The notes beneath the pieces were generated by a model. It saw only the letters and a program-made list of their open reading frames with translations, did no database searches and was not told the DNA's origin. Shown one piece after another: positions 675 to 46,360 of a stretch of 64,000 bases of DNA (positions are counted from its first letter, which is position 1; each line of letters begins with the position of its first letter). Source of the stretch: Erigeron canadensis. Taxonomy: Eukaryota > Streptophyta > Magnoliopsida > Asterales > Asteraceae. The DNA lies in assembly GCF_010389155.1 (NCBI RefSeq), contig NC_057763.1:10726649-10790648 (forward strand), read 5' to 3'. The position numbers were made by a program, and so were the translations under genes.

Positions 675-821
675 CCAGCGGCGCTGGTGGCTGGGCCTGA
701 TGGGCCAGCGGCGCTGGTTTGCACTAGCGGCGCTGGGATGCTTAAGGGAGCGGCGCTGGATTTCTCCAGCGGCGCTAGTAGATGACTGACCAGCGGTGCT
801 GGCTGTTGCCAGCGGCGCTGA
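675..821 (-). repeat. Dyad array CCAGCGCCGCTGG in the A LTR
   Basis: Seven exact or near-exact copies of a 13-bp odd palindrome start at 675, 705, 724, 747, 766, 790 and 809. After the first interval the spacing alternates about 19 and 23-24 bp. Variants include CG to TG changes. The array sits directly upstream of the LTR TATA box. Confidence 0.9.
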
Positions 822-2609: not shown

Positions 2610-2691
2610 CCAACGGCGCTGGCAAGGTGCCAGCGGCACTGGTGAAAAGCCTGTACATCCAGCGGCGCTTAAGAGGGTCCAGCGGCGCTGG
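2610..2691 (-). repeat. Internal dyad array 1 of A
   Basis: Copies of the 13-bp dyad start at 2610, 2630, 2659 and 2679, giving spacings of 20, 29 and 20 bp. Several are degenerate by single transitions. Confidence 0.85.
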
Positions 2692-3248: not shown

Positions 3249-3312
3249 CCAGCGGCGCTGGTTATTATCTGGAGGCCATGAGCGGCGCTGGAGGTCTTCC
3301 CAGCGGCGCTGG
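3249..3312 (-). repeat. Internal dyad array 2 of A
   Basis: Three copies start at 3249, 3279 and 3300 (spacings 30 and 21 bp). This matches the alternation seen in element B. Confidence 0.88.
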
Positions 3313-3946: not shown

Positions 3947-3991
3947 CCAACGGAACTGCCAGAGGCGCTTGAAGTTTCCCAGCGGCGCTGG
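3947..3991 (-). repeat. Internal dyad array 3 of A (degenerate)
   Basis: One clean copy at 3979-3991 is preceded 20 bp earlier by a degenerate copy at 3959 and an uncertain one at 3947. Confidence 0.6.
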
Positions 3992-4409: not shown

Positions 4410-5090
4410 CTAAAATTGAAGTTTCACGAAAATCTGAGCTGCTACCGGGGCTACCAGCGGCTCTGGAAGTTTCCCAGCGGCGCTGGCCTGGGGGACCAGC
4501 GACGCTGGTTGCTCCAGGACAGTTTCAGAATCTTCGATTTGACTTGTTTCGCCTTGCTCTTGCTCCTTTTTGACCGGGACTGCATTAGTAGTTGAGGAAT
4601 GGTTTTCCACATCAGCAAGATGAATCTTGCTTGTTTCCGGATGTGGTATTCCATCTCCATCTTCGGGGGGTGACTGACAAACCTCATCAGGATGTCGATC
4701 ATCATCATATATGACCGTGCAGCCGAGAAAATCCTTGATTGTTGGGCAACGCTCCTGTGATTGTTCCTTCCCCGCTTGCATATACTCCTCCAAGAAAGTA
4801 TAGGCCTCTATTAATGAATAAAGGGGAAAGTGACGACCACAAGCAATGTCCACCGCCTTCACACTTGGAACCTCTAGTCCTAGATAAAACCACATTGCAG
4901 AATTATATTCAATTATCTCTTTGTCTTCCAAATAATCATCCGGCGGTCCAAGCTCCCAAAATGCGTTAAGCATCTCCTTTATTCTCTTCCAAGCATCTAA
5001 CCATGTTTCATCTTCTTGTTGCCTGAAATCCCTAATCTCCTCCAAATAAGCCACAAACTCATCATCGGATTCACAGTCTTCAAATTCCAT
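4410..5090 (-). CDS. gag-like ORF of non-autonomous element A
   Basis: An open frame of 226 codons starting 80 bp inside the primer binding site, the normal place for gag. The block RQQEDETWLDAWKRIKEML resembles the GEAWKRLKKM block of element B gag, so it is probably the capsid region of an Athila-type gag. The C-terminal third is acidic and serine-rich, and it runs through a dyad array read as SAAG. No CCHC zinc knuckle and no protease follow. The protein would be a nucleocapsid precursor acting in cytoplasmic particles, with enzymes supplied in trans by an autonomous relative such as B (inference). The frame is open, so recent function is possible. Confidence 0.6.
   Translation of the reverse strand: MEFEDCESDDEFVAYLEEIRDFRQQEDETWLDAWKRIKEMLNAFWELGPPDDYLEDKEIIEYNSAMWFYLGLEVPSVKAVDIACGRHFPLYSLIEAYTFLEEYMQAGKEQSQERCPTIKDFLGCTVIYDDDRHPDEVCQSPPEDGDGIPHPETSKIHLADVENHSSTTNAVPVKKEQEQGETSQIEDSETVLEQPASLVPQASAAGKLPEPLVAPVAAQIFVKLQF
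4454..4508 (-). repeat. Dyad array in the gag 3' end of A
   Basis: Copies start at 4454, 4474 and 4496. They lie in the 3' end of the gag-like ORF, the same relative place as the array at 11849-12013 in element B. Confidence 0.85.
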
Positions 5091-5170
5091 GAGTAATGTT
5101 AATCCTGCAATACAGACACTAACTAAGAATAAATTAAACTAATCCTAACCTAACTAAATCTGGCCTAATA

Positions 5171-5189
5171 GTCCCCGGCAGCGGCGCCA
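5171..5189 (-). other. Primer binding site of A (tRNA-Asp type)
   Basis: The minus strand reads TGGCGCCGCTGCCGGGGAC. It is complementary to the 3' end of plant tRNA-Asp apart from one changed base (GCTGCC for GTTGCC). Athila elements typically use this primer. It lies 6 bp from the LTR end at 5196. Confidence 0.85.
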
Positions 5190-5195
5190 AAAACT

Positions 5196-6423
5196 TGATG
5201 AGCGGGAAGTTTAACTTAACTTTCCTAACAAGTTTTAAATTTATATTTTACAAGGTTAACTTCTCTACTACACTCACTCTCAGGCAGTGGACCCGATCGT
5301 TTATAGTATAGCAAATCGGTAAGACCAGGATCGTTCTCAGGGACTATGTCTAAGAATGTAGCTAGGTGTAATTCTAAGATTGGCGGGGTTTGTCACTACT
5401 TAACTAACTAAGACTAACAAAAGCTTTCAACCACCTGGTCTAGCGAGGAAGCACGAAATGAGTTGAAAATGAAAAGCAAAACTATAATAATTAAAGCGAT
5501 ACATCTACTTGGAACTAGTTCACATGCCACATAGATCATCTACCATATTAATTATAATTGTTGAACGACTAATCACGACCAAGCTTTCTATCAAGTCCCC
5601 CGGTCTAAGTGGTCAAGATTCCAGTCAAGTCACCTAACCCTTTAATTAAGCTTCCTGTTAAGTCACCTAATTAAGATTATAAACTAAGCCTGTTTTTATT
5701 GCCTAACCTTTATAGTTTAACGGCATTCCTGTTAAGTCACCCAAGTAGTTTGGTTTCCTGTCAAGTCCCCAACCTACTTTAACCATGTCAAACATAAAAA
5801 CGGTTCAACAATTACAAGCAAATAGTATCACTACATAGGCATGATCACATTATCCAAGCAGATGCATAATAATCTAGCTACTCATGGCAAAACACATAAC
5901 ACTAACAACCATTAATAGAAAAGAATCCATAGTAACAATTGCTAAATAAGTAGTCTTGCACCAAAGTATGCTAGTAACAATAATAAAAGTACTTAAACAA
6001 TAAAAAGAGAGAAATCAAACTAAAGAGGTGAATAATTGATGATGTCGGATTACTGCTGATCACGCCGCGGTGACTTACGCATGCGCCACACCAAACACTC
6101 TCCTAGTTGTTGAAGAATCCTCTTAATTATTGAATGCGGCTGCTAATAATTAAATTGAGATTGATAATTGATTGATTGTTGGTGCTTGATCTTCTTGATG
6201 ATATGGAGGTGTTAAGAGGGTTTAGTTCTGATGGAAATACCATAAAAACGGCCCCCAAGTCGCCTGGAGGAAGCAAGCTACGGCCCTAGGGTTTTAGAGG
6301 GGTATTTATAGGTTTCCGGATAAAACCTAGCTAAACTGGGCTGACCAGCGGTGCTGGTGGGCTCTCAAGCGGCGCTGGTGGCTGGTTTAGTTCGGCCAGC
6401 GGCGCTGGGATGCTTGAGGGAGC
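5196..6423 (-). repeat. 5' LTR of A, part 1, interrupted by element E
   Basis: Begins on the plus strand with TGATGAGCG at 5196 and matches the left LTR closely from about 5672. Dyad copies lie at 6344, about 6366 and 6395. The LTR is broken at 6423 inside a further dyad copy by insertion of E, with target duplication GGAGC at 6419-6423 and 38191-38195. Confidence 0.85.
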
Positions 6424-8231
6424 TGTGACAATCCTCAATTTCCAATTAGGACTACTTACTTATATTTATCTAGGTATCGATCCCTAGAGGTTGTTAAGAG
6501 AATTTACCTTCTAGATATTCAAAGCATAGTGATAATTGTCCTTTAGTACAGTGAAATGCCTTAGAAATAACATAGATGACTAGCTATATTAGAAATGGCA
6601 TAACCAATAACTATAATCATTCAAGCCAATCTCAAGCTACAAATATTAGTTCTAATTGAACTTGACAAAATGCCAATGAACCAAAAATTTTATCTCGAGA
6701 AGTTAAGTTATATAATTAATAAGGTAAGACTCACAAGTTGTGATAACAATCATAAATCTTCACAAAGGACCAACAATTCAAACACCAAACTAATTGATGT
6801 GCATTTGAACATAAAAAATATAATGACCATCTAAATATATTTTTGTAAAATTATGGTGTCCATAAAAGTGCTTGAATAATAATAAATATCTCTATGTAGC
6901 TAAAATGAATACAAGTGGTGAATAATACGTAAATAACCAATTTGAAAGATAAAATGTACATGCATACATACATATACATACGGTTTTATGTATATATAAA
7001 AATGGGAATACATCTTGTACCATAAGGTCCTAATAACTAGTACTTAAATAGTACATGCACCTGACATTCAACATATACATTGAAGTACTTAAAGCAACTA
7101 ACAAAACTAAAATCCACTTTCAAAATTTGAATGAAAATTCTGCACATGTACATATATATTTACAAAACATACAACTACACATTCTTAGTGTACAAGAGTA
7201 GGAGTATAATTTAAGGGCCACACACCCTCCACCCTTACCTCACACTCTCTTTGTCCCATTCTCACACAAAAATTCTGCACATTTCTTTTCTCTCTCTCAC
7301 ACGTGAATATACCCCAGCCCACTCCACTCTTTCACTTCATTTCCCAAAACACAAACACACCCACATGCAACACTTTCTCTCTTGTTTCTCTCTCACTCTC
7401 ATTCTCCAAGAAAAGCTTCATTGTGTTCCTTTCTTCTTCAAAATTTCGAGACATGCATCACAAATTGGAGTTCAAATCTTAACTAATCAACTAAATAATA
7501 AGTGGGTTAGCTAGTAATCATCAAGGTTCAAGCAACAATGGAGGTTTAATCTTTAAGTAAACAACTAAAATAATAAAGGGTTTCAATCTTGGATCATCAA
7601 GGATCATTGAAGCAAGCTTGGGGTTCATCTTGGTGTCACTTTTGGTCACGAAAATTCTGCTCAGAACAGCCCCTCTTCACAGCCCCAAACCTCGAATCAA
7701 AAGGTTGACAACACACTCTCTTTGACTAACAAATCTCATCTTTAATCTTGTTTTTCCAAGAACCGATTTCTATTAAACTTTTCTCCATGTTTTCTTTCAA
7801 TTTCTTCTTCATTTAAACTCAATGAGGGCGAGGTTGATAGATTCTTATCTCACATGTTCATGCATGTAAAGATCTAGAGAAAGGATTCAATGATTCAACA
7901 AGGACAAGACCCAAGAGTTAGTAGTTGAATGATTTGTTATAAAATGGTTAAATGGGTCTCTTTAAAATGATTTTGTACCAAAGAAAAGATGCTTATACTT
8001 CTGGGATTTTTCATAAAAATGATGTTTTGAAAAAGAAGGTTAAAGGTTATAGCTTGATTATGTTCAAAAAGGGTAGATCTTGACATGCATGTACATAAGT
8101 TGTGTTAAATTAGTTGTTAAGAGCTTGGATTGAGATAGATCTTTAAATGATGAGTGATGATCTTGAAATTGATAATAATCTATAAATCTGAAGTTAAGAG
8201 ATACAAATTAAAGTGAAAATCTTGTTAGTGG
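6424..8231 (+). mobile_element. Element E, left part: Tekay-like solo LTR
   Basis: Begins TGTGACAATCCTCAA. The other end (38190) is TTGAGGTGTTACA, giving imperfect TG...CA inverted termini, and a 5-bp target duplication (GGAGC) flanks the whole. Together with 35556-38190 it is about 4.4 kb with no coding sequence, which fits a solo LTR. A CT-rich stretch at 7220-7400 looks like a transcribed leader. Element B entered at AGTGG (8227-8231). Confidence 0.6.
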
Positions 8232-8470
8232 TGATGAGCGATTTATTTGTGACTTTTTCATTACTAAATTGTTTTGATTTCAAGGCATAAATGAATCATT
8301 AATGTAAGCTTTAAGGTACTTAATGGATTTAGGTTTGTTGACAGGTTCGAATTGAGAGATGACTGATCGAGAGAGTAGGAATGAGTGTAGGAGAGTTAAG
8401 GACGAAGTTCAAGACTTGTGAGTACGAAGAATGAGAGTCGAACCATGGAAATGTAGGCGAAATGAAGTGT

Positions 8471-8656
8471 TTAGCGATGCTGGAAATTAAACCAGCGCCG
8501 CTGGAGTCCTTCAGGCACCGGACCAGCGCCACTGGCATGAAAACCAGCGCCGCTCATCCTTCAAGCATACACCAGCGTCGCTGGCACCAAAACCAGCGCC
8601 GCTCGTCCCCTCAGGAAGCAAACCAGCGCCGCCGGCATCAAAACCAGCGCCGCTGG
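8471..8656 (+). repeat. Phased dyad array in the B solo LTR
   Basis: Copies start at 8471 (degenerate), 8492, 8523, 8544, 8572, 8593, 8623 and 8644. Spacings are 21, 31, 21, 28, 21, 30 and 21 bp. The repeated unit is about 51 bp: dyad, a 17-bp spacer often containing TCAGGA, dyad, then an 8-bp A-rich spacer such as CATCAAAA. It ends 38 bp before the TATA box. Confidence 0.92.
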
Positions 8657-8694
8657 AGATAGGTCGGCCAGAATAGGGTTTTTCGTATTTTGCC

Positions 8695-8702
8695 TATAAA
8701 TA
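8695..8702 (+). promoter_or_regulatory. TATA box of the B LTR
   Basis: CTATAAATACCCC, matching the TATA context of the A LTR. The same motif recurs in the 3' LTR at about 34449. Confidence 0.7.
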
Positions 8703-9801
8703 CCCCGTTATAAACCCTAAAAACAAAAGCAGAGCACATAGGTCGAAAGTGACGGCTAGAAATCAAAGAATAGGGTTTCCCAAGGCATTCCATAATAGAT
8801 TTAACATCATCAACACTTGGCAATCCATTCCAGTGATTCTTAATCACCCGGTTCTTCATTCTTTCTTTCTCTCCGTTGATTTCAGATTTCTATGTTATTT
8901 TATTTTATCAGATTGTTCATGGCTACTCAGTCTATGAGTAGCTAATTTACTAGACATTCGTTTGGACGTCATGTAAACATGACTTGATTGTTGATTATGG
9001 TTGATTGTTGAACAGTTTATATGCTAAATCGTCGATCCATATTTATTTGATCCTGCTTGTTATTAGTTTTCATATACAAACTGATTTTAATTGATTTGGT
9101 TGAGTCGACTTGGTACCGAGGCTCTAGGGTCATTTTAATTTGTTTGCGAAACATTGATCGGTCTTTAATCAGTGTAATCAATTGATCTATAACTGGACAC
9201 TTGGTTGGGAATTAATAATTGGGTCAAACGGGTATGATTTTAATTAAGATTAACTAAACCAATTTGGCGAATGGAAACCGGAGCCAAGTGGTGTGGGTAA
9301 TCAGCGTCTTTATACTTTAACAAGAATTTAGACTTACATTAATGATTTCAGTCATAGTAACAGGCTCAATGCTTAATGCTTAATGAATGACCTTAGCAGG
9401 AGTTCATTAAAGTGTTCAACCAGTCGAAAGGCAGTTGAACTAAATTATTCAAGTGAATCTAACGAGAATCTGAATTTGAAAAGAGTCGTTCAACAACTTC
9501 AATCATAATTGCTTTTAAGCGTGTCAATCAAAACCAAACGAATGTCAGTTCTTACATTTATTAATTCTTTCAAATTTATGTGCAATTAGTTAATTAGGAA
9601 AACCCCCAATCACAACTTGTAATTTCATTTCTAAATATTTTAGTTTTCTTAGAATTAAGTTCCCTGAGAACGAACCTGGACTTACCTAGGCTATATTACT
9701 ACTACACAGAGTACACTGCTCTTAGTTGCGTTTTAAGATCGAATAGGTAATCCTTGAATTATAAATTTAAAACTTAGGTAGTTTAATAAAAACGCACATC
9801 A

Positions 9802-10580
9802 AGTGGTAATTTAGAGGCTAACACAAGCAATCAACATCATTGGTGGGATGTATTAACCAATAAACTTTTTGACATAATTAATCTTCTGTCTTGTAAGGAA
9901 TAAACTGAATATGTGAGGGCATTTTCAAGCAAAACTATCAAAATAAAAGTTTTAGACAAATGAGTTAATATTAACCTCCAATTGGAATTACTCAAAAATA
10001 CTGAACCAAACGAAAGAAATGATTTTTCTACTGAAACTGGTCAAAACTGTAATTTGGTATGAATATTTTATAAACTTTAACAATTTTTATCTCCTAATTC
10101 ATAAAGTTTCAGGAGGTCATACTTGGTGGAAAGTAATTTCAATGTGTTGTGAACTTAAAATAAAATCATGGGATTTTTCTAACAATCAGAACATCAAAAA
10201 CTTTTATTAAACTTCTGATGTCGCAAGCAGTGTCCATTCGGGACAGTTTGTGTTTGGATAATTTTTAAGGACACCAAACATTATCTAAAAATTCACCAAA
10301 AATTCACAAAAATACTAGATACATATAAATCTCTATATAAAAATCATGAAGATCCAAATAATTCGTCTTGACCCCAAAATAGCAGCCAACATTTCATAAA
10401 ATGTGAAGTAAAAACAGAAAATTTTGAAAGAAGCTAATCATTAGTGTAATGGGCTAAAAGATGCACTAAGGAGTTAATGGGCTAGCCCGGCCCAACTAAT
10501 GAACCGACAATGAATATAAATCAGTAGGCCTATTTGGCCCCATAACCACTATGATCCATTAATCACATAACCCAATTAAG
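9802..10580 (+). repeat. Duplicated 779-bp segment of E flank
   Basis: Near-identical to 35556-36334 and of exactly equal length, with only scattered single-base differences. It starts with the AGTGG target duplication and ends at the 7-bp AATTAAG shared with the B LTR. It holds no supported gene. Confidence 0.9.
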
Positions 10581-10722
10581 TTCCCTGAGAACGAACCTGG
10601 ACTTACCTAGGCTATATTACTACTAGATAGAGTATACTGCTCTTAGTTGCGTTTTAAGATCGAATAGGTAATCCTTGAATTATAAATTTAAAACTTAGGT
10701 AGTTTAATAAAAACGCACATCA
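10574..10722 (+). repeat. 5' LTR remnant of the main B copy
   Basis: Matches the last ~149 bp of the B LTR (9653-9801), starting at AATTAAG and ending CACATCA. The rest of this LTR is missing because of the duplication junction. Confidence 0.9.
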
Positions 10723-10729
10723 AAGTTTT

Positions 10730-10747
10730 TGGCGCCGTTGCCGGGGA
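10730..10747 (+). other. Primer binding site of B (tRNA-Asp)
   Basis: TGGCGCCGTTGCCGGGGA is complementary to the 3' end of plant tRNA-Asp. It lies 7 bp after the LTR end, as is usual for Athila elements. Confidence 0.92.
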
Positions 10748-10838: not shown

Positions 10839-12076
10839 ATGAGTAACAGTGAAATGGAAGAATCATTGTTAGTAAAACATAGGAAAGTTCCCGAAACTCC
10901 CAATCCACCTATCAAGGTACCTGAAGCGAACATTCCGTTTTCTGCGAAATTGACTCACATCAGCATGGTGCAGAGCTTGGGGTTTGATGGTGAGGTTAAT
11001 CAAGATCCGTATCATCATCTTTCGTGATTTATTGAAGAAATGCAGCTGTTTAACTACGGAACAGGTACTGAAGAAACGGTCAGATTAGGGATGTTTAGGT
11101 ATTCGTTGCAAGGAATGGCGTTAGCATAGTTAGAGGAGCTCGACCCGGACTCGATCAAGGCTTGGGAAGAATTGAAGGAGGCTTTTTGAAATAGGTTTTA
11201 CCTACGAGAGTTGCGAAGAGTGAGAGAGTTGGCAGTGGAAAACTACTCTCAATTAAGTTCAGAATCGATGGGAGAAGCTTGGAAAAGACTTAAGAAAATG
11301 TCAAGGGCTTGCTACGGTCGAGAAAGGAGTAGGGAAGAGCTAGTGCAGTTGTTCTATGGAGGAGGAACGCGAGACACGAGAATGTATTTAGACATTATGA
11401 GCGGAGGATTGCTTGACTACAAAAACCGCAAACAGCAGCTATGCGGCCTTCGACGACATAGCCAAAAGGAATCTAGATAAAGATTGGTTAAAATCAGCCT
11501 TATTAGAAAGAAATGTGAAAAAATTGCAAAAGCAATTCGAAACCTTGAGTAGGGAAGTGAAGGAAACTAAAGAGGAAACACATAGGAAAATTGAGGAGGT
11601 CAAAGGCGAGCTTGGTAAGGTGACAAAAATGGTGGAACTGATTTATGAGAAGCTATCTCCAAAAGTAGAAACGGCAAAGGGAATTACTACTAGGTCAGGA
11701 AAAGCTACGAAATCGCCGAAGAATCCTCTGGAAGCTGAGGAAGAGGATAACGAGGAAGATATAGTAGAGGAGGAGCAACCTGAGACGGTGAAGCAAAGAG
11801 GTAGAGAGAAAAAAGTCGAGGAAGAAGAAGCAGTTACACGTAATTGTCCCAGCGCCGCTGGAAAAAGCCATAGCGCCGCTGGCAGCTCCAGAAAAGCAAC
11901 CAGCGTCGCTGGTGAAACACCAAGCGCCGCTGTGTCTTCAGGAAACTCATCCAGCGCCGCTGGTTCGCTCAGGAATAGATCCAGCGTCGCTGGGATCCCA
12001 CTAGCGTCGCTGGTCACGCCCAGATCAGAAACTAGAACAAAACCGAAGCCTTACAGTCGGACAATCCCGTTTCCAT
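10839..12076 (+). pseudogene. Athila gag of element B, broken
   Basis: Starts with ATG about 90 bp after the primer binding site. The frame is broken early by stops near 11027, 11130 and 11190. One looks like a Trp codon turned to stop. There is also a frameshift near 11425. The capsid-like block GEAWKRLKKM lies near 11268. A Lys/Glu-rich, coiled-coil-like stretch follows (about 11500-11650), then an acidic stretch and the dyad array translated as SAAG repeats. It would form the retroelement particle, but this copy is inactive. A TAG at 12076 separates it from the protease region. Confidence 0.78.
11849..12013 (+). repeat. Dyad array in the 3' end of B gag
   Basis: Copies start at 11849, 11870, 11900, 11921, 11951, 11981 and 12001. 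Spacings are 21, 30, 21, 30, 30 and 20 bp. The first six are in one frame (Ser-Ala-Ala-Gly or Ser-Val-Ala-Gly); the last is in another frame. Spacers again contain TCAGGAA. Confidence 0.92.
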
Positions 12077-12423
12077 AGAAGCTAAGGAGAAATCGAGTGG
12101 AGCAGAAAGCCGAGATTTTCAAGGATGCATTAATCGGGACCAAGGTTACTATACCGTTTACGGAATTGGTAAGGTTGACTCCAGGGTATGCAAGGAACAT
12201 TAAGGACATGTTGAAGGAAGATAGGGTGCCAAGAGATGTACATGGTATTGAAGAAGTGAAAGGAATTCTGGAAAAAGGAGACGAGTTCATCACTCCTAAG
12301 CTGGAGGATCCAGGAAGTTTCATCATACCATGTACATTGGGGAACCAAATCGCTTGCGATTGTCTAGCGGATTTAGGAGCAAGTATCAACTTGATGCCAT
12401 GGTCTATTTATACCAAACGGTAA
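12077..12423 (+). pseudogene. B protease region, truncated
   Basis: The frame contains DPGSFIIPCTLGN and then DLGASINLMPWSIY, the aspartic-protease active-site region typical of Athila pol, where the usual DSG/DTG is DLG. The protease would cleave the polyprotein. Sequence of B stops a few codons after the motif, at the filler junction near 12418. The rest of the protease and most of the reverse transcriptase are absent from the window. Confidence 0.75.
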
Positions 12424-12490: not shown

Positions 12491-13964
12491 CGGTCCAACT
12501 TATCTTGGAGCTAGTTTTCCCCTCTTAATGAATCTGACTAGGCCCTTCCAAGGCGAAACCTTAAGCATCACTCGATCACCAACCTGAAACTCTAAAGGTT
12601 TCCTTCGGTTGTCTGCATATTTCTTTTGTCTGTCTCTTGCTTTTAGAAGATTCTCCTTGATTTGAGCAACTCTTTCGGTAGTTTCGAGGATGATCTTTGG
12701 ACCTATTGGTTGCATGTCTCCCACTTCGTGCCATGCAAGCGGGGATCGACATTTTCTTCCATACAAGACCTCATAAGGCGGACACCCAATACTTGCATGA
12801 TAACTATTGTTATATGAAAATTATACTAGTGGGAGGTGAGTATCCCAACTTCCTCCAAAGTCTATGACACACGCTCTTAGCATGTCTTCTAGCGTCTAAA
12901 TCGTTCGCTCACTCTGTCCGTCTGACTGCGGATGGTAGGCGGTGCTCATATCGATACGTGTTCCCAAGGCTCGTTGCAACGACTTCCAAAATCCTGAGGT
13001 AAATCGACTATCCCTACCACTAATGATTGGTACAGGGACGCCGTGTTTAGCTACAATCTCTTTAAGATACAGGCGTGCATACTGCTCCATTGAGTAATCT
13101 TCTCGTATGGGTATGAAATGCGCTGACTTAGTCAGTTGATCTACCACCACCCATATAGCGTCTTTACCACTACTTGTTCTTGGTAACTTCGTGACAAAAT
13201 CCATAGTAATCCTTTCCCACTTCCAACTAGGAAGCTCTGGTTGTGTTAACAGTCCTCCTGGCTTCTTATGTTCTGCCTTAACCTTCAAGCACGTTAGACA
13301 CTTGCTCACGTAGACCGCCACATCGTTCTTCATTCCTGGCCACCAAAATAAATCTCGCAAGTCTTGATACATCTTATCTATCCCCGGGTGTATAGAGTAT
13401 CCTGCCTTGTGCGCTTTATCCATTGTCAGTTTCCTTAGTCCTCTAAACAGTAGTATCCACAACCGATCACAAAAGTACAGTCCTCCATCATCTCTTTGAG
13501 TAAACCATTCTATCATACCTCCCAATCCTTCCCTGTCAACATTCTCCTCCTTGTTTGCTTCTACTTGTGCCCCAATTACTCTATCCTTCAGACTGTTGTG
13601 CATAGTAATACTCATGGCTCGAATTCGTCGCGGTTTAACTCTCTCTTTCCTACTCAAAGCATCTGCTACTATGTTTGCCTTCCCGGGATGATATCGAATC
13701 TCACAATTGTAATCGCTAAACAACTCTAACCATCGTCTCTGGCGCATATTAAGGTCTTTCTGGGTGAAGATATGCTGAAGGCTCTTATGATCCGTGTATA
13801 TTACACTCTTCGTCCCATATAGATAGTGTCTCCAACATTTAAGTGCAAAAACGATAGCTCCCAACTCCAAATCGTGTGTCGTGTAATTCTTTTCATGAAT
13901 CTTCAGTTGGCGTAAGGCATACGCAATGACCTTGCCTCGCTGCATCAACACACATCCTAAGACT
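12490..13964 (-). pseudogene. C pol, 3' part: RNase H and integrase, truncated
   Basis: Minus-strand pol of a chromovirus-like (Tekay-type) Ty3/gypsy element. In sense order it has RNase H ([12 protein letters not shown], then [15 protein letters not shown]), an integrase zinc-finger region ([16 protein letters not shown]) and a catalytic core. The core has Asp in MDFVTKLP, Asp in SGRDSRF and Glu in QSDGQSER. The C-terminal fragment runs MYGRKCRSP to RGKLAPR. Stops interrupt it after SERTI (about 12896) and after LAPR. No chromodomain or 3' LTR follows, because the deletion at 12490 removed them. The enzyme would insert the cDNA into chromatin; this copy is dead. Confidence 0.85.
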
Positions 13965-14099
13965 TGACCCGACGCGTCGCAATATACGATAAAATTTCGG
14001 TTCCTTCTGGAAGACTTAAGACCGGTGCATTACATAACTTCTTCTTCAAGATTCTGAAGGCTTCTTCTTGTTTCTCTCCCCAATCGAAACTTCTATCTT

Positions 14100-15400
14100 T
14101 GTGCGTCAACAATTTAAGAGGTTGTGCGATCTTTGAGAAGTTCTCAATGAATCATCGGTAGTAGCCTGCCAATCCGAGAAACTGCCTGATCTCGGTCGGT
14201 GTCTCTGGCCTTCTCCAATTCTCTACTGCTTCTATCTTACTGGGATCAACCTTTATTCCATCCTTGTCAACTACATGACCCAAAAACTTCACCTCTTCTA
14301 ACCAAAATTCACATTTCGAGAACTTCCTATACAACTTCTCAGCCCTCAGAAGTTCTAAAGCTTCTCTCAGATGGACTTCATGCTCTTTCTTAGTCTTCGA
14401 GTAGATGAGAATATCGTCAATGAAAACAATGATGGACTGATCTAAGTAAGGCTTACATACGCGATTCATCAGGTCCATAAAAACAGCAGGCGCATTTGTT
14501 AATCCAAATGGCATCACCAGAAACTCGAAGTGTCCATATCTCGTGCTAAATGCTGTCTTTAGCACATCTTCTTCGCGAACCCTTAACTGATGGTAGCCCG
14601 AACGAAGATCGATCTTTGAGAAATACTTTGCGCCTTGTAACTGATCAAACAAATAATCAATGCGCGGTAGAGGATATCGATTCTTAATGGTTAACTTGTT
14701 GAGCTCACGATAGTCGATGCACATGCGAAAAGATCCGTCTTTCTTTTTAACAAATAATACCGGTGCACCCCATGGTGAAGAACTCGGTCGGATGAAACCC
14801 TTGTCTTGTAGCTCTTGTAATTGTGTAGCGAGTTCTTGCATTTCAGAAGGAGCTAAACGGTATGGTGCCTTTGCTACTGGAGTTGCATCAGATAGGAGAT
14901 CAATTCGAAATTCAACTTGTCGAGACGGAGGCAATCCTTGAACGTTATCAGGAAATACATCGGGAAAATCACGGACTATTGGGATATCGGTTAGTTTGAT
15001 TACTTCGGTTGTCGCGCTCATTAGGTTTCGTTTGTGAGACTCGGGTCGTTCACCTTGGATTTCTAGTACATCTCCCCCACATAAGGGAATTCTAAGGATT
15101 TTTGCACGGCATACAATCGTTGCATCTACCAGGGATAACCAATCCATCCCCACTATTACATCAAAACTACCCATTTCAAATGGGATTAAATCTATATAGT
15201 ATGAATGAGTATCTAGGGTTATCACACATTTAGGCACAACTTGGTCAAGTTTAGAGATTCCACCACTAGCTACCTCTATTTCATAGCAAGCATGGGTACG
15301 AATGGGTTTCACGTTAATAGTTCACACAAAGTTAGTGGAGATAAAGCTGTAGTTGGCACCCGAATCAAATAACACAGTAGCTAGATGATTGTTTAAGAGA
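14100..15400 (-). pseudogene. C pol, 5' part: protease and reverse transcriptase
   Basis: In sense order: protease active site LFDSGANYSFIS near 15345-15380, then a TGA stop near 15335. Next is a 386-codon open stretch (15312-14152) with the reverse transcriptase: [47 protein letters not shown] and the catalytic [12 protein letters not shown], where FIDD replaces YxDD as is common in Ty3/gypsy. It ends at [10 protein letters not shown] with a stop; the next codons, FIENFSKIAQPL, are still recognisable. The frame is broken only by point changes, so decay is moderate. Confidence 0.9.
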
Positions 15401-15444
15401 AATGTACCCGTGACGACGTTTGGATCATTAGCAGCTTCCATAGC

Positions 15445-16084
15445 ATTCAAGGCAAAGACTCATCCCCTGGCCTGCTGGGCTTGGTTAACTCTGGGAGGAT
15501 TAGGTGCTGCAATCTATAGAGGATTTTGATTGGCTGCGGCTGGAGCGGGTCGTCTAACAACTCTTGGGCAAGCATTGCGGTAGTGATCAGTGCTGCTACA
15601 CTCATAACAGGTTCTCTGATTAGCTGGAGGAGTTCTGAGGTTTCTTGGAGCGACATTCAGTGGTACTGCTGGAGCTCTGGCTACCCTGCAATCTCTAGCC
15701 AGATGCCCAAACTTCTGACAATTCTGACAAAATCGACATGGCACTTCTGTTGAATGATGATAAGTATAAGTAGTACACTGGGGAAATTGGCCAACATATG
15801 CCTTCTGCCCTGGCTCAACTGCTACAAACACTTTCCCAACTCTGACTCTCTTATCAGTTCTGAAATCTCTCCTCTTACTAGCTTCACCAAAGTCTCTCTT
15901 CTTCTCCGCAAGCTTTGACAATGTTCCAGCCCTAACCAAGTCGTCAGTCATAGCACTGGCTCTTCGAATAGCTTCTTCAATCAAGAAAGGAGGAATGCCA
16001 GTCATAGTGTTACGAATCTGAGGAATGAGACCATAGATGTATCTCTCAATCAACTTGGACTCAGAAGTCACCAAGTGAGGTACC
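15445..16084 (-). pseudogene. C gag, C-terminal part with two zinc knuckles
   Basis: Continues gag after the D insertion (HLVTSESKLIERYIYGL, the retrotransposon gag family core). It has two CCHC knuckles, CQNCQKFGHLARDC and CYECSSTDHYRNAC, which would bind element RNA. The N-terminal part is at 23721-24515. The two halves join at the GTACC target duplication. Confidence 0.88.
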
Positions 16085-16723
16085 TGTTGATGCACGTTGA
16101 TGTGACAACAGCAGCTTAGATTTGATATGTCATTTAGATTAAGACATTATGTTAGTTTATGTCGTATCTATATATGTAATTGATAGATTATGGACTTTAT
16201 GTTTTGGTAATGATCGATTACATGTTTTGGTGTTATATATATGTGTTATGTATGATGTTTGTTGTGTGATATACAAGTACAAACATAATATGTGTTAGGA
16301 TTCCATAAGATGAAACACTTAGGAATATAACCAAGTATTACATCTAACGAAGATAAGATATATCTTCGTTAGGGGCAAACGAAGATAAACTTCGTTTGGT
16401 ACAAACAAAGATTAACTTCGTTACATGGGCTGGGCAGCTAAGTTCGTAAGAACAAAGCCCAGCAAGCCCAGTTCGACCTGAAACATATATATATGAATGA
16501 ATACCCTAATAATAACACACATTCGACATACACGTACTCCAGACATCTAAGTTCGTTCTATAGCTTATAGAAACGAATATAGCATTATACGGCTGATTAT
16601 TTACTTGATAATTAGCGATATACCCGTTTACTAATCAAACTAGTTATCTCGTGAGGATTCCGCACTCACGACATAATCATAGACGATCTCGAGAGCGATC
16701 TGTAGCTATCAAGGGACTCACAA
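16085..16723 (+). repeat. 5' LTR of element D (Ty1/copia)
   Basis: From TGTTGATGCACG to GGGACTCACA, 639 bp. Duplicated target GTACC lies at 16080-16084 and 23716-23720. It differs from the 3' LTR by a handful of substitutions and one deletion of about 17 bp in the 3' copy, so the insertion is young. It contains two strong dyads (16344-16372 and 16376-16398). Confidence 0.95.
16344..16398. repeat. Two adjacent hairpin dyads in the D LTR
   Basis: CTAACGAAGATA and TATCTTCGTTAG are perfect 12-bp arms with a 5-bp spacer (16344-16372). CAAACGAAG and CTTCGTTTG are perfect 9-bp arms with a 5-bp spacer (16376-16398). Both are kept in the 3' LTR. Confidence 0.88.
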
Positions 16724-23092: not shown

Positions 23093-23715
23093 TGTTGATG
23101 CACGTTGATGTGACAACAGCAACTTAGATTTGATATGTCGTTTAGATTAAGACATTATGTTAGTTTATGTCGTATCTATATATGTAATTGATAGATTATG
23201 GACTTTATGTTTTGGTAATGATCGATTACATGTTTTGGTGTTATATATATGTGTTATGTATGATGTTTGTTGTGTGATATACAAGTACAAACATAATATG
23301 TGTTAGGATTCCATAAGATGAAACACTTAGGAATATAACCAAGTATTACATCTAACGAAGATAAGATATATCTTCGTTAGGGGCAAACGAAGATAAACTT
23401 CGTTTGGTACAAACAAAGATTAACTTCGTTACATGGGCTGGGCAGCTAATTTCGTAAGAACAAAGCCCAGCAAACATATATATATGAATGAATACCCTAA
23501 TAATAACACACACATTCGACATACACGTACTCCAGACATCTAAGTTCGTTCTATAGCTTATAGAAACGAATATAGCATTATACGGCTGATTATTTACTTG
23601 ATAATTAGCGATATACCCGTTTACTAATCAAACTAGTTATCTCGTGTGGATTCCGCACTCACGACATAATCATAGACGATCTCGAGAGCGATCTGTAGCT
23701 ATCGAGGGACTCACA
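23093..23715 (+). repeat. 3' LTR of element D
   Basis: 623 bp, TGTTGATGCACG to GGGACTCACA, followed by target duplication GTACC (23716-23720). It keeps the AACGAAGATA dyads of the 5' LTR. Confidence 0.95.
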
Positions 23716-27145: not shown

Positions 27146-27894
27146 GTCCTAGATGGCTGAAACTAAGACTTGATCAATACACAAAGATCTAGATCGATTC
27201 CGGGACTTGTTAGAACATCAAACTAGTACATATATACATAATAGCACATTATGAACAAGTTTCTCTCATTTTCAAAAAAATGGGTTTTGTAGATTTAAGC
27301 ATGTTATGACCCAAATTCATGCATAAAAAGGTTACTAAACACATTTAGACACAAACCTATTAGCTTTTAACACGTTTTGCATATCAAAATTGGACCAAAT
27401 CATCAAGAACATAAACTTGAAAAAGTACACTTTTATTTTGATCAAAAACTCAAAATTTGTTGTTGTTACCTGAAATTTGATGCTAGAAATAGGTTTTGAT
27501 TATCACAAGGAAGCTAAAAGTACAAGAAATTTTGGTTTAACAACCCAAAATCAAGAGATGGATTTTGTGTGTGAAAATGGTGGCTGCAAGTGTGTGTTTT
27601 TAGAGAGAGAGTGAAGAAAGATGGAGAAGATGGGAGAATGAGTTTCTCTCTCTAAGATATTCTATTTTTAGTTTTCCAATATTAAATGAACCTAATAAAT
27701 GTAGGGACTATTTGTGAACATTTTTGGATTAGAACTTTCTTAAATACAATCGTTTACGACATCGAAATCTAGTATTTTATCATAATAAACCATAAACTCG
27801 TCTTATAATTCTGGGATTAAGGTTAAATTGACCTTCAAGAACTTAGATAGAATTTAAGAAACTTATTCACTACATTTTTAAGACGGTTGTTACA

Positions 27895-28461
27895 GAGGTT
27901 AGATGTTTTCTGGGACATGAAGGATTTTACAGAAGATTTATTAAAGATTTCTCGAAAATAGCTAGACCCATGACAAGACTCTTAGAAAAAGAAGTTAGGT
28001 TTGACTTTGATGAAGATTGCGTGAGGGCTTTTAAGAAACTTAAAGCTCACCTAGTAGAATCACCGATTGTAGTATCTCCAGATTACGCACTACCTTTCGA
28101 GATAATGTGTGATGCCAGTGACTATGTTGTAGGAGCAGTTTTAGGGCAGAGAGTAGACAAGCATTTTAGGCCAATTTATTATGCTAGCAAAACCCTAAAT
28201 GAAGCTCAAAGGAATTATACTACTACTGAGAAGGAATTGCTAGCGGTCGTTTTCGCCTTGGACAAATTTAGGAACTACATAGTCATGCAAAAAGTCACAG
28301 TATTTACAGACCATGCGGCAATAAGATACCTTGTTAACAAGAAAGATGCAAAGCCTAGATTGATTAGATGGGTGCTATTACTTCAAGAATTCGACATTGA
28401 GATAAGAGATAAAAAGGGAACAGAAAACTTAGTCGCAGATCACCTCAGTAGGTTAGATTAG
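27895..28461 (+). pseudogene. B reverse transcriptase end and RNase H
   Basis: Resumes B pol after C with the end of the reverse transcriptase ([20 protein letters not shown], close to the usual RSFLGHAGFYRRFI). RNase H follows: [48 protein letters not shown] and [17 protein letters not shown] ends this stretch at 28461 and the frame continues. RNase H would degrade the RNA template. Upstream reverse transcriptase motifs, including the catalytic YxDD box, are missing. Confidence 0.9.
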
Positions 28462-29844
28462 CTATATGGAGAAGGATTGGTGTCCGAAGAAATAAGAGAA
28501 ACATTCCCTGAGGAGAATTTGATGAGAGTAGAGGTCAACGATAAAGAAGACGCACCATGGTTTGCAGATATTGCAAATTATTTAGCTGCATGAGTTTTAC
28601 CGTTGCATTTAGATTATTATCACAGAAAGAAGTTTTTCTCGGATCTTAAGTACTACTTTTGGGAGGAACCATTTCTGTTTAGGATTTGCGCTAATGGGAT
28701 GGTTAGGAGGTGCGTATCTGAAAGCGAAAGTAGAAAAATACTTGATGATTGTCATTCAGGACCGACAGGAGGACATTATGGACCTTCTACTACAGCAAGA
28801 AAGGTTTTCGAAGCAGGGTTCTACTGGCCAGGAATATTCCAAGAAGCGAAAACATTGGTTAATTTGTGTGATGCATGCCAGAGACAAGGATCGATAACGA
28901 AAAGGGACGAGATGCCCCAAAAGAGCATTCAGGTTTGTGATGTATTCGATGTATGGGGAATTGACTTCATAGGACCATTTCCCCCATTTCACAAATATAA
29001 ATATATATTAGTAGCAGTAGATTATGTGTCAAAATGGGCTGAGGCGTAAGCTCTTCCCACAAATGATGCTAAGTCGGTCATAGATTTCCTTAAAAATCTA
29101 TTTAGTAGATTTGGAATGCCAAGAGCTTTAATAAGTGATAGAGGGACTCATTTTGCTAATGCTCAGCTTGAAAAAGTGCTTAAAAGATACGGGGTTAATC
29201 ATAGATTTTCGACTGCATATCATCCACAAACTAGTGGACAAGTAGAAAATACCAATAGGGCACATAAAAGAATTTTAGAAAAAACTGTATCAGATAATCC
29301 GAAAAACTGGGCACTTAGACTAGATGATGCATTATGGGCATTTAGGACAGCGTATAAAACACCCATAGGAACAACCCCTTACAACTTAGTTTATGGTAAA
29401 ACTTGTCATTCACCCCTTGAGATAGAACACAAAGCCTATTGGGCACTTAAGAATCTAGATCTTGATATGTTTGAGGCAGGAGACAGAAGATTGTTACAAT
29501 TACATGAATTAGATGAAACTAGGTGGATGACATATGAGAATTCAAAATTATACAAAGAAAGGACTAAAGCTTGGCATGACAAGAGAATTAAGGCAAAAAG
29601 ATTCAAGGAAGGAGACTTAGTTTTACTTTTCAATTCTAGATTCAATCTAAAATCACCTAAGTTCAAACCGAAATGGTCAGGACCTTACTTAGTTCTTAGA
29701 GTTTATTCTTCAGGATATGTGGAATTGAGAGCCAAAAATGGAGACAGTTTCATAGTCAATGGTCATAGAGTTAAATTATATAATCAAGAAATAGGAGAAA
29801 GACAAGTCGATCCTAGTGACGACTTTACTTTCAAAATGAACTAG
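28462..29844 (+). pseudogene. B integrase, two extra stops
   Basis: Same frame as RNase H, with stops near 28593 and at 29049. Zinc-finger region: [14 protein letters not shown] and [18 protein letters not shown]. Catalytic triad: Asp in [12 protein letters not shown], Asp in ISDRGTHFANAQ, Glu in GQVENTNRAHKRILEKT. C-terminal DNA-binding region: EGDLVLLFNSR and KFKPKWSGPYLVLRVY. The last 242 codons (29116-29844) are uninterrupted. No chromodomain is seen, as expected for Athila. Only three in-frame stops occur across RNase H and integrase. Confidence 0.92.
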
Positions 29845-29991: not shown

Positions 29992-30076
29992 CCAGCGCCG
30001 CTGGTCGCCACACCAGCGTCCGCTGGTACCTCACTTGTACAACCAGCGCCGCTTGCATTGAAGCCAGCGCCGCTGG
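29992..30076 (+). repeat. Dyad array just after B integrase
   Basis: Copies start at 29992, 30013, 30043 and 30064, giving spacings of 21, 30 and 21 bp. The second copy carries an extra base (CCAGCGTCCGCTGG). Confidence 0.92.
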
Positions 30077-30079
30077 CAT

Positions 30080-30565: not shown

Positions 30566-30755
30566 CCAGCGGCCGCTCGGCATTTCTCCAGCGCCGCTGG
30601 CTTTAAGTTCGAACACCTCTAGCGCCGCTGCTTAATTTATAAGCGCCGCTGAATCTGGGACTTGACCACCAGCGCCGCTGGTGATAAAATCAGCGTCCGC
30701 TGGCCTTTGAAAATTGCACCACCAGCGCCGCTGGAAAATAACCAGCGGGCCGTTG
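30566..30755 (+). repeat. Dyad array upstream of B ORF3
   Basis: Copies start at 30566, 30588, 30619, 30640, 30669, 30690, 30722 and 30742. Spacings are about 22, 31, 21, 29, 21, 32 and 20 bp. Some copies have a one-base insertion that makes an even palindrome such as CCAGCGGCCGCT. Confidence 0.92.
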
Positions 30756-30889: not shown

Positions 30890-32373
30890 TGGATGGGATT
30901 TCACAATCAAATCGGAACATGATTTGAACATATACTTTACTGAAGCCAAAAAGGATAAAGGGTATAGCAAACTGAAAACATAAAGTCATGAATGGTTGCT
31001 ATGGCCAGGTGCGAAAAAGAATGAGAAAATAAGGTTGAATAACAAACTGTTAGGACTGCAAAACAAAGATCTAGCACCACCAAAGAGGTTAGATTGGGAT
31101 GTTTTGGAGAGTTTAGGACTCAAGAAGAAAATCAAGAAATGATGGAAGCAACAGTTGTGGCTCAAGAGGATGACATTAGTTGGCAGATGTGGGTTTTGTT
31201 GTTCAACATTACAGAACATGTTTATAGAGAATGGTGTTTGGAGTTTTTATGTTCACTTTATGTTGAAAACTTTAAAGCAGGGGAACTCAATACCGCACAA
31301 ATCATTCATTTCAGAGCAGGAGGAATTTGGAGGCATTGTACTGTGGCCGATTTTGGCTATTTAATCGGATGTTGGGATTTCAACCATTTGAATGACAGAG
31401 ATTTGGATACATTCATCGATGGAGCATCTACAGTGAACAGCAGTGTGGAAACAATAAATACCTTTTGGAACAAAATCAGTGGAAAGAACAATCTTCAAGG
31501 CAATTCGAGCAAGGCATCGGATATCATTGACCCCACTCATCGTCTCCTGTAGAAGTTAGTTGCCTATAACTTTAGGCATAGATCAATGAATTGGGATAAA
31601 GTCTACAACATGGATGCACAGATCATGAGACTATGGATTGAGGGATCTCCATACGAGTACTGCTTGGCCCCATTTCTACAAGCTCACTATCTTCAGTCCC
31701 ACAGGGATGACAAGATAGTTGGTGGGCATTTTATTTCACAGATTTTTGTCAGGTTGGCACTAGGCAGCACTCGTGAGTTTTGTTCAGAGATGAAGGAGAC
31801 GGAGGTTCTCGATGCTAGGGAGTTGATTAAGTTGCAGATTTTGGACAGACAGAGAAATTTACTTTTCAAGGGAAGTCAAGAAGTGAAGGACATCGTACTC
31901 AGGCAGGCACCTCTACATTTGAGACTGGTCAGAGCAGCAGAAGTCAGGCTGGCAGGGGACCCACTACACAGCTGAGAGAGGATGTTGATGCACTTACAGC
32001 CGAGCTCACTAGGATCAGGTTCCAGCAGCAGCAGGAGCAGCAGTACCAGGGATCTGCTTTAGGTTACCTGATGTACCATACAGACAGATACCAGCCTGTG
32101 CATGAGCGTTTGGTTGATCACTTTTTCCCCAGCACACCTCAGTACTCAGCACCAGCAGTATATCATGTAGAGCAGCCGAGTTATGATCATTACTACCCTG
32201 TGTCACACCAGCAGCAGCAGCATACCACCAGCACCACCACCAGACTAGGGACCATATCTTTCGGCATGAACCCTGTCAGGGGTTTTGATACTTTATTTGC
32301 TAGAGGTGCAGGTACATCTGGAGATACACCTTATTTCACTCAGGAGCCAGATGATGATGCTGGAAATCAGTAG
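30890..32373 (+). pseudogene. B ORF3, ATHILA ORF1-like protein in the env position
   Basis: Coding similarity starts before 31094 in another frame (PKRLDWDVLESLGL near 31080). The main frame, 31094-31975, has one in-frame TAG at 31552. It carries VYREWCLEFLCSLYVENF followed by IHFRAGGIWRHCTVADFGYLIGCWD (31303-31377). This pattern is typical of the ATHILA ORF1 family of plant retrotransposons. After a frameshift a Gln-rich tail follows (32071-32373). Its biochemical role is unknown. It lies 3' of integrase, where retroviruses carry env, but I see no signal peptide or membrane segment. It starts about 340 bp after the last dyad copy of the preceding array. Confidence 0.72.
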
Positions 32374-34006: not shown

Positions 34007-35555
34007 TGATGAGCGATTTATTTGTGACTTTTTCATTACTAAATTGTTTTGATTTCGAGGCATAAATGAATCATTAATGTAAGCTTTAAGGTACTTAATG
34101 GATTTAGGTTTGTTGACAAGTTCGAATTGAGAGATGACTGATCGAGAGAGTAGGAATGAGTGTAGGAGAGTTAAGGACGAAGTTCAAGACTTGTGAGTAC
34201 GAAGAATGAGAGTCGAACCATGGAAATGTAGGCGAAATGAAGTGTTCAGCGACGCTGGAAATTAAACCAGCGCCGCTGGAGTCCTTCAGGCACCGGACCA
34301 GCGCCGCTCATCCTTCAGGCATACACTAGCGTTGCTGGCACCAAAACCAGCGCCGCTCGTCCCCTCAGGAAGCAGACCAACGCCGCCGGCATCAAAACCA
34401 GCGCCGCTGGAGATAGGTCGGCCAGAATAGGGTTTTTCGTATTTTGCCTATAAATACCCCGTTATAAACCCTAAAAACAAAAGCAGAGCACATAGGTCGA
34501 AAGTGACGGCTAGAAATCAAAGAATAGGGTTTCCCAAGGCATTCCATAACAGATTTAACATCATCAACACTTGGCAATCCATTCCAGTGATTCTTAATCA
34601 CCCGGTTCTTCATTCTTTCTTTCTCTCCGTTGATTTCAGATTTCTATGTTATTTTATTTTATCAGATTGTTCATGGCTACTCAGTCTATGAGTAGCTAAT
34701 TTACTAGACATTCGTTTGGACGTGATGTAAACATGACTTGATTGTTGATTATGGTTGATTGTTGAACAGTTTATATGCTAAATCGTCGATCCATATATAT
34801 TTGATCTTGCTTGTTATTAATTTTCATATACAAACTGATTTTAATTGATTTGGTTGAGTCGACTTGGTACCGAGGCTCTAGGGTCATTTTAATTTGTTTG
34901 TGAAACATTGATCGATCTTTAATCAGTGTAATCAATTGATCTATAACTGGATACTTGGTTGGGAATTAATAATTGGTTCAAACGGGTATGATTTTAATTA
35001 AGATTAACTAAACCAATTTGGCGAACGGAAACCGAAGCCAAGTGGTGTGGGTAATTAGCGTGTTTATACTTTAACAAGAATTTAGACTTACATTAAAGAT
35101 TTCAGTCATAGTAACAGGCTCAATACTTAATGCTTAATGAATGACCTTAGCAGGAGTTCATTAAAGTGTTCAACCAGTCGAAAGGCAGTTGAACTAAATT
35201 ATTCAAGTGAATCTAACGAGAATCTGAATTTGAAAAGAGTCGTTCAACAACTTCAATCATAATTGCTTTTAAGCGTGTCAATCAAAACCAAACGAATGTC
35301 AGTTCTTACATTTATTAATTCTTTCAAATTTATGTGCAATTAGTTAATTAGGAAAACCCCCAATCACAACTTGTAATTTCATTTCTAAATATTTTAGTTT
35401 TCTTAGAATTAAGTTCCCTGAGAACGAACCTGGACTTACATAGGCTATATTACTACTAGACAGAGTACACTGCTCTTAGTTGCGTTTTAAGATCGAATAG
35501 GTAATCCTTGAATTATAAATTTAAAACTTAGGTAGTTTAATAAAAACGCACATCA
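34007..35555 (+). repeat. 3' LTR of the main B copy
   Basis: 1549 bp, TGATGAGCG to CACATCA, followed by target duplication AGTGG (35556-35560). It is exactly 21 bp shorter than the solo LTR at 8232. The dyad array (starts 34246, 34267, 34298, 34326, 34347, 34377, 34398) lacks one 21-bp interval. TATA box near 34449. Confidence 0.93.
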
Positions 35556-38190: not shown

Positions 38191-39402
38191 GGAGCGGCGC
38201 TGGATTTCTCCAACGGCGAGGAAGCACGAAATGATTTGAAAATGAAAAGCAAAACTATAATAATTAAAACGATACATCAACTTGGAACTAGTTCACATGC
38301 CACATAGATCATCTACCATATTACTTATAATTGTTGAACGACTAATCACGACCAAGCTTCCTATCAAGTCCCCCGGTCTAAGTGGTCAAGATTCCTGTCA
38401 AGTCACCTAACCCTTTAATTAAGCTTCCTGTTAAGTCACCTAATTAAGATTATAAACTAAGCCTGTTTTTATTGCCTAACCTTTATAGTTTAACGGGATT
38501 CCTGTTAAGTCACCCAAGCAGTTTGGTTTCCTTTCAAGTCCCCAACCTACTTTACCTAGGTCAAACATACAAACGGTTCAACAATTACAAGCAAATAGTA
38601 TCACTACATAGGCATGATCACATTATCCAAGCAGATGCATAACAATCTAGCTACTCATGGCAAAACACATAACACTAACAATCATTAATAGAAAAGAATC
38701 CATAGTAACAATTGCTAGATAAATAGTCTTGCAACAAAGTATGCTAGTAACAATAATAAAAGTACTTAAACAATAAAAAGAGAGAAATCAAACTAAAGAG
38801 GTGAATAATTGATGATGTCGGATTACTGCTGATCACGCCGCGGTGACTTACGCATGTGCCACACCGAATACTCTCCTAGTTGTTGAGGGTTTAGTTGATT
38901 ACTGATAATTGATTGATTGTTGGTGCTTGATCTTCTAGACGATATGGAGGTGGTAAGAGGGTTTAGTTCCGATGGAAATACCCTAAAAACGACCCCCAAG
39001 TCGCCTGGAGGAAGCAAGCTACGACCCTAGGGTTTTAGAGGGGTATTTATAGGTTTTCGGATAAAACCTAGATGAACTGGGCTAACCAGCGGCGTTGGGA
39101 TGCTTGAGGGAGCGGCGCTGGATTTCTCCAGCGACGCTAGTAGATGACTGGCCAGCGGCGCTGGTGGCTCCTGCTGCACCTCCCGCGTCTTCGTTCAGCT
39201 CTGAATCGCTTCCTTGTGTCTTGTAATCATCATAGTCTTTCCTCCTGAGTTACTTGATGCCATTTACCCTCTCTCGCATCTTCTGTGAACCTATATAAAC
39301 ATGCAATTCATTAAGTACCAAAAGTTCCAGAATATTAACTCATTTAGACATATAAATGAAATCTTTCAATAGGGGTTTTTATCACAATTTGGACGCTCAT
39401 CA
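38191..39402 (-). repeat. 5' LTR of A, part 2, with a rejoined LTR copy
   Basis: 38191-38219 continues the LTR interrupted at 6423. At GCGAG (38215-38219) the sequence jumps back to the LTR position equivalent to 5443 and runs to the terminus CGCTCATCA at 39402. It has a short internal deletion near 38886 and a shortened dyad array (39087-39165). It is therefore a recombinant or partly duplicated LTR. The flank after 39402 is unrelated sequence. Confidence 0.8.
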
Positions 39403-42060: not shown

Positions 42061-42200
42061 AACACACCCAAAAGCACATACATCTGTGTGTGTTAACTTC
42101 AACATCTACTTTTAAAAAAAAAAACTTCAACATCTTCTCTAATTAATTCTTTAGTCTTTTTCACGAAAACCAACCTACCAATAACAATTCACCACATAAT

Positions 42201-46360
<4,160 letters not shown>

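Follow-up and report, generated by a model that had tools for sequence, protein, structure and literature searches.

Arrays of the window and the elements that carry them

The window analysed here is a stretch of 64,000 nucleotides of Erigeron canadensis DNA, and the reported array lies in it in the U3 of an Athila-type LTR, upstream of a core promoter (Table 1). Dyads of the 13-mer CCAGCGCCGCTGG (class I) follow one another at steps of 21, 31, 21, 28, 21, 30 and 21 bp, exactly as an earlier note on this DNA had given them. Its wording that the dyad is repeated eight times was loose, as two copies are exact, five carry one or two mismatches and one carries four. The dyads start at 8471 (4 mismatches), 8492 (0), 8523 (1), 8544 (2), 8572 (1), 8593 (1), 8623 (1) and 8644 (0). 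The unit of about 51 bp claimed for 8471–8656 was also obtained with Tandem Repeats Finder (51 bp).

The Athila-type assignment made in the same note agrees with the order of the frames (RNase H before integrase), with a primer binding site (PBS) core at 10731..10742 that we take to be of the tRNA-Asp type, and with an LTR of the TG...CA form having AGTGG on both sides. Of the 120 integrase matches listed, the one of highest identity is to an Erigeron canadensis protein (90% identity, 92% query coverage). No reverse transcriptase frame was found in the window copy of this element. The Pfam family ATHILA (PF03078) matched none of the pieces scanned. Searching the genome for this family also gave nothing, and is uninformative because the control genomes gave no match either. 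Scanning the window for tRNA genes and Rfam families gave no match. In the stretch 8227–10742, three things follow the LTR of solo look: flank DNA that shares 99.2% identity over 778 bp with the DNA to the right of the 3' LTR (at 35556), the final 150 bp of an LTR, and the PBS, in this order. Judged from its sequence, this part of the window appears to be a rearranged or duplicated insertion site.

We observed 96 matches to the 13-mer in the window (≤2 mismatches, both strands; many sites counted on both strands, as the 13-mer is near-palindromic), compared with 0.10 expected from dinucleotide shuffles. The matches form 12 arrays, on both strands and some inside open frames. The array had been presented as a feature of one Athila LTR, which was not borne out, given the 11 further arrays in the window and ∼2,700 matches per strand in the genome. 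The minus-strand arrays between 675 and 6408 belong to a second element, in which 1–751 matches 5671–6423 at 93%. Two of the window arrays sit between the integrase and the post-pol ORF. The post-pol ORF pieces examined had no Pfam match above the cut-off. For the related post-pol ORF at locus L098, no homologue was scored and no Pfam match was found.

Table 1. Positions of class I arrays and accompanying features in the window
Feature	Position	Strand
Class I array, likely LTR of minus-strand element	675..821	-
Class I array between two LTR-like matches of minus-strand element	2610..2691	-
Internal class I array, minus-strand element	3249..3312	-
Two internal class I dyads, minus-strand element	3959..3991	-
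Class I array inside open frame 4410-5138, dyads in two reading frames	4454..4508	-
PBS core GGCGCCGCTGCC of minus-strand element, of the same kind as at 10731	5177..5188	-
Class I array, other likely LTR of minus-strand element	6345..6408	-
LTR (TGATGAG...CATCA), AGTGG on both sides, solo-LTR look	8232..9801	+
Reported array, eight class I dyads, U3 of Athila-type LTR	8471..8656	+
Core promoter TATAAATA (TATA at 8695), 38 bp 3' of last dyad	8695..8702	+
Primer binding site core GGCGCCGTTGCC	10731..10742	+
Class I array inside open frame 11401-12078, steps 21, 30, 21, 30, 30, 20	11849..12013	+
RNase H and integrase frames of array-bearing element	27847..29841	+
Class I array directly 3' of integrase frame, 5' of post-pol ORF pieces	29992..30076	+
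Class I array 5' of post-pol ORF pieces 31043-32373	30588..30734	+
Post-pol ORF piece, 28% identity over 131 aa to ORF beside class IV arrays (L098)	31043..31549	+
3' LTR of the same family, then AGTGG; 97.0% identity to 8232-9801	34007..35555	+
Class I array in 3' LTR	34246..34410	+
Class I array in related LTR-like stretch 38216-39402	39086..39164	-

The window also contains a nested copia element with LTR-like repeats at 16085–16722 and 23093–23715 (96.25% identical), gypsy-type pol frames on the minus strand at 12899–16146 and a 43-bp tandem repeat in six copies at 25814–26070 (92% matches). Two frames within 42147–46357 match Pfam Transferase at profile positions 1–138 and 137–428, and probably belong to a single acyltransferase gene that an intron or inserted DNA interrupts. 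The stretches 51148–54166 and 56202–60208 are 96.5–96.9% identical and flank a gag frame (54420–55787), which together are probably another LTR element.

Spacing, placement and conservation of the class I dyads

Allowing at most one mismatch, we counted 2709 matches to the 13-mer on the forward and 2752 on the reverse strand of the 426-Mb genome (exact sites counted on both strands), compared with 16 and 15 for the reversed pattern. The 13-mer is ∼170–180 times commoner than this control, a result that covers part of the refuting check proposed in the earlier note.

For the steps, we took the surroundings of the first matches listed (20 stretches of 10 kb and 39 short ones), all on contig C1, so that the sample spans two contigs with the window included. 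Dyads were called with ≤3 mismatches (centre free), arrays had to contain at least one dyad with ≤1 mismatch, and dyads ≤60 bp apart were joined. The resulting sample holds 86 arrays, 426 dyads and 340 steps, of which 217 are 17–24 bp long, 96 are 28–32 bp, 13 are 40–43 bp and 14 are 49–56 bp; none falls at 25–27 or 33–39 bp. The steps of 40–43 and 49–56 bp would fit sums across a decayed dyad. Peaks at 20/21 and 30/31 bp, of the kind whose absence would have refuted the earlier note, were present at the sampled loci, and the same peaks appeared in 71 steps from 20 loci outside pattern discovery. Short and long steps alternate irregularly within arrays.

Of the 340 steps, 81% deviate by at most 1.5 bp from a multiple of 10.3. 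The share is the same for periods of 10.0–10.5, and drops to 49% at 9.5 and 32% at 11.0. Two step lengths resolve a period poorly, however: R reaches 0.78 at 10.3, but periods of 9.0 and 12.0 still give 0.64. For spacers less than 50% alike (n = 67), R was 0.72 at 10.2–10.5 bp.

A TATA-like box was found within 90 bp downstream in 40 of the 85 arrays with enough downstream sequence, and 38 of these 40 end 30–38 bp 5' of the box; the arrays are mutually related and the counts are therefore not independent. On the upstream side, a TATA-like box was found in 2 of 86 arrays; the figure for random 90-mers is 12.5%. The other 45 arrays include internal ones, located in or beside gag- and protease-like frames or after the integrase. 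Dyads inside frames occupy all three reading frames.

Among 244 distinct class I copies, the 13 motif positions hold 0.65–1.9 bits, which is partly by construction as the copies were picked by their likeness to the 13-mer. A3 and T11 are almost invariant. Spacer positions within 12 bp hold ≤0.3 bits (244 distinct copies, 50 arrays), and this non-conservation is independent of the picking bias. The A-rich 8-bp spacer described earlier is a property of the reported LTR. The CpG positions of the dyad show C-to-T and G-to-A changes, which are expected of methylated DNA. The centre base is C in 203 copies, T in 21, G in 13 and A in 7, and this kept C is more asymmetry than a pure dyad needs. Within an element, the short motif is dense and mostly in one orientation, as in VANC-type targets. 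The two halves did not covary within class I (244 distinct copies), so arm-to-arm correction is unsupported at short range.

We also compared 65 pairs of nearest arrays. Substitutions per column were 0.109 in dyads, 0.177 in spacers and 0.118 in flanks, and small gaps per column were 0.0087 in dyads versus 0.049 in spacers. The dyads are thus held, though picking by 13-mer likeness lowers their divergence figure. Small gaps per substitution amounted to 0.080 in dyads, 0.276 in spacers and 0.214 in flanks. Spacer lengths therefore have no special protection from small indels, which weakens the case for phasing, although misaligned units may inflate the spacer gaps. As spacer indels per substitution are at least as frequent as those of the flanks, the phasing may be inherited rather than selected. 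Whole-unit gaps of 19–21 bp were common between nearest arrays.

Palindrome classes sharing a core

The dyad of the reported array appears to be one of about nine palindrome classes (our grouping of the sequences), eight of them with the core GCG-N-CGC and with different, mostly complementary arms. Class II (CCACTGCGCCGCAGTGG) arrays were found at the sampled loci. Class III (ATGTGCCACAT) arrays, with the core GTGCCAC, were found at one locus and its LTR partner. Further classes with the common core came from the first 100 listed GCGCCGC sites: RTTGCGCCGCAAY, GGTGCGCCGCACC, TRTGCGCCGCAYA, ATCGCGCCGCGAT and ACATGCGCCGCATGT, plus the CTAG/CTCGCGCCGC forms. GCGCCGC with flanks occurs 5229+5496 times, compared with 628+663 for the reversed pattern; this 8-fold excess is a lower bound because the reversed control itself contains class VII dyads. 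Seventy-seven of the first 100 listed GCGCCGC sites lie within 150 bp of another, while random placement gives a mean of ∼1.

Arm pairing was measured on the 94 distinct sites among these 100, which are related rather than independent and come from a list with no C at −5. Complementary bases were found at ±4, 5, 6, 7 and 8 in 76, 48, 57, 38 and 44 of the 94 sites, compared with 44.4, 22.9, 23.6, 24.3 and 25.3 expected from shuffled arms. None of 5000 shuffles reached the observed pairing at ±4, 5, 6 and 8, and 7 of 5000 did so at ±7. All four pair types are present at ±6. At ±9 and ±10 the 94 unsorted sites gave no clear pairing excess. Perfect 13-bp palindromes make up 28 of the 94, the arms being mostly, not always, complementary. 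Another set of 31 sites overlaps the 94 and adds no independent support.

In the other classes (lists excluding only steps >60 bp), the share of steps deviating by ≤1.5 bp from a multiple of 10.3 was 26/55 for class II, 7/7 for III, 4/10 for IV, 1/1 for V, 14/16 for VI, 0/1 for VII, 7/7 for VIII and 3/3 for IX, which together make 62/100 against a chance level of ∼29%. Class II fits periods of 9.5 or 10 as well (25 and 28 of 55). Helical phasing, as claimed for the reported array, fits the two- and three-turn spacing of class I and several other classes, but not classes II and IV. Paired sites are common across classes; strict phasing is not general.

Related elements differ in class. At L011, the LTR with class III follows RNase H and integrase frames that include an SH3_Tf2-1 domain, which is found in chromoviruses. 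L097, the LTR partner of L011, shares 97% identity with it along the 1.25 kb that precede the array and 88% along 114 bp at the array's end, and has fewer dyads. L096 is 84% identical to L011 over 3.5 kb; its class II array, in the neighbouring L074, is about as far beyond the integrase as the class III array of L011. The post-array alignment of these two elements has 60 of 92 columns identical and a score of 53, compared with ≤33 in 300 shuffles. Two related elements of chromovirus type thus hold different classes at the same LTR place.

Upstream of the TATA boxes in L010 and L020, the class II dyad has C as its sense-strand centre, and in L074 it has G. L010 and L020 share 73.5% identity with each other over 1134 bp, but their likeness to L074, L009 and L028 is confined to the arrays. 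A duplex site permits a flip of this kind, which a fixed RNA loop would forbid.

At L068 (C1:83200–84600) and L069, read by eye, class IV and V arrays stand before a likely start codon and recur in the apparent first intron of a post-pol gene, at L068 behind a PPT-like GTGGGG stretch. The class II 17-mer had one match each in nine stretches of viral contigs, and these were set aside.

Possible binders, rival explanations and known systems

The motif, its spacing, the TATA position, the shared core, the covarying arms and the class difference at one LTR place were observed directly. On balance, we lean to reading the dyads as paired sites for dimeric DNA-binding proteins, the U3 arrays being activating; protein binding, activation and the host origin of the binder are what we infer from the sequences. 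A dimer-bound dyad was already proposed in the earlier note and is still the best reading, with its helical part limited to certain classes. Each dyad would be bound by a dimeric protein, the GCG-N-CGC core being the common contact and the arms setting class specificity. The arrays would place pairs of sites ∼18–24 or 29–32 bp apart. Those in LTRs, directly 5' of the TATA box, would most likely act as a U3 upstream activating array; further copies stand 5' of the post-pol ORF as well as close to gag/protease frames. A shared core with covarying arms would imply several related binders, or one family changing with its sites.

The best named candidates for the binder, not established as such, are the LOB-domain (LBD/AS2) factors. 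AS2/LBD binds GCGGCG/CGCCGC in vitro (PMC7582388), LBD dimers discriminate palindromes (PMC10118128) and LBD binding to two sites at a set distance is described (PMC12461856). GCGGCG accounts for six of the core's seven letters here, and dimers with two sites at a set distance would likewise be shared. The 6-mer leaves the arms of the dyads unexplained. It is kept in 243 of 426 class I dyads, with one extra copy in 4245 spacer bases; class III is without it. The 6-mer itself is not enriched in the genome (CGCCGCG with flanks 612+613 versus GCGCCGC 5229+5496).

A wider possibility, which we regard as doubtful, is that one genome holds diversified, matched pairs of protein and dyad, in which a family of dimeric DNA-binding proteins keeps the common GCG-N-CGC contact and diverges in arm specificity. 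Several retrotransposon lineages would exploit or encode these proteins, and the dyads would be swapped wholesale and symmetrically as silencing is escaped. If true, the matched pairs would be the LTR-retrotransposon counterpart of the VANC/VANDAL arms race.

In the Arabidopsis VANDAL elements, the element-encoded protein VANC has been demonstrated to bind the non-palindromic motif YAGTATTAY (PMC5735166); its target arrays are dense tandem repeats in non-coding parts, with the motif in one orientation, and the motif changes rapidly between related elements (PMC5735166, PMC10398659). A VANC-like anti-silencing protein, encoded by the elements, could bind the arrays here and strip methylation, with the arms diverging as siRNAs are escaped. 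We consider this unlikely, even though the arrays are dense tandem repeats of a short motif in U3 and internal regions, mostly in one orientation per element, and their classes differ between related elements as VANDAL targets do. The VANDAL elements are DNA transposons and their motif lacks the palindrome. In the post-pol ORF pieces examined here, no element-encoded DNA-binding protein was recognized (no Pfam match above the cut-off). Moreover, the same class II dyad occurs in elements that are alike at the arrays only, which fits a shared host factor better than an element-encoded binder.

The palindromes might instead act as RNA, the transcript hairpins feeding or resisting small-RNA silencing or serving packaging. 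The fold of 8471–8656 is stable (z = −4.70 versus shuffles), and the arms covary between classes like stems. In maize, Sirevirus palindrome clusters, which are likewise an LTR cis-region of palindromes, attract small RNAs (Bousios 2016 as cited in PMC10760457); they differ in sequence (CACCGGACNNNGTCCGGTG), and the small-RNA link is known there. However, palindromic input folds well regardless, the halves do not covary within class I and the loop orientation of class II flips between two kinds of element. The two- and three-turn spacing and the tight placement before the TATA box also argue against a role as RNA, which we judge quite improbable.

A neutral minisatellite, in which an old unit with two spacer lengths was spread by unequal exchange and template switching and its symmetry and phasing were inherited, would account for the irregular step order, the common 19–21 bp whole-unit gaps and the indel tolerance of the spacers, but is very unlikely, as the TATA distance is near-constant, different classes keep complementary arms and the dyads, although CpG-rich, diverge less than the spacers (a figure lowered by picking on 13-mer likeness).

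Returning to dimer-bound paired sites, the closest known design is that of the Sireviruses (Ty1/copia). Their palindromic repeats (RMs) are many copies of short palindromes clustered 5' of the LTR TATA box and, where ENV is present, also in the linker 5' of ENV; the core is CGG-CCG, with Tnd-1 as one exception, and the arms are element-specific (PMC2829016). Section 9 of that paper gives no spacing pattern for them. The earlier statement that no such plant design had been described was therefore too strong, as Sirevirus LTRs hold palindromic repeats both 5' of the TATA box and 5' of an internal gene (PMC2829016). The arrays here are alike in their clustering 5' of the TATA box and in a shared core with varying arms. 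They differ in the core (GCG-N-CGC), in the host elements, those classified here being Ty3/gypsy (RNase H then integrase, or with SH3_Tf2-1 in addition), and in the presence of about nine classes in one genome. The arrays at 29992–30734 precede the post-pol ORF pieces at 31043, a putative ORF, and may be compared with the ENV-linked Sirevirus RMs. By this analogy, the best reading is that the classified arrays would function like Sirevirus RMs without being members, as they belong to another superfamily and have another core; the arrays would be the Ty3/gypsy counterpart of the Sirevirus palindromic LTR repeats. The exact 13-mer was not found in the open-licence papers searched, and the titles and abstract beginnings among the matches listed there mention no Athila palindrome array.

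These results suggest that Sireviruses are not alone in having palindromic LTR arrays. The sites are directly readable from the sequence, in about nine classes within one genome, eight of them with one core, together with a related element pair that differs in class at the same place. The classes are ready probes for a binder search by yeast one-hybrid or DAP-seq, and for tests of symmetry, core and spacing. They bear on two open questions, namely how the promoter of a retrotransposon stays active in the face of silencing, and how changes in a cis-site are matched by changes in its binder.
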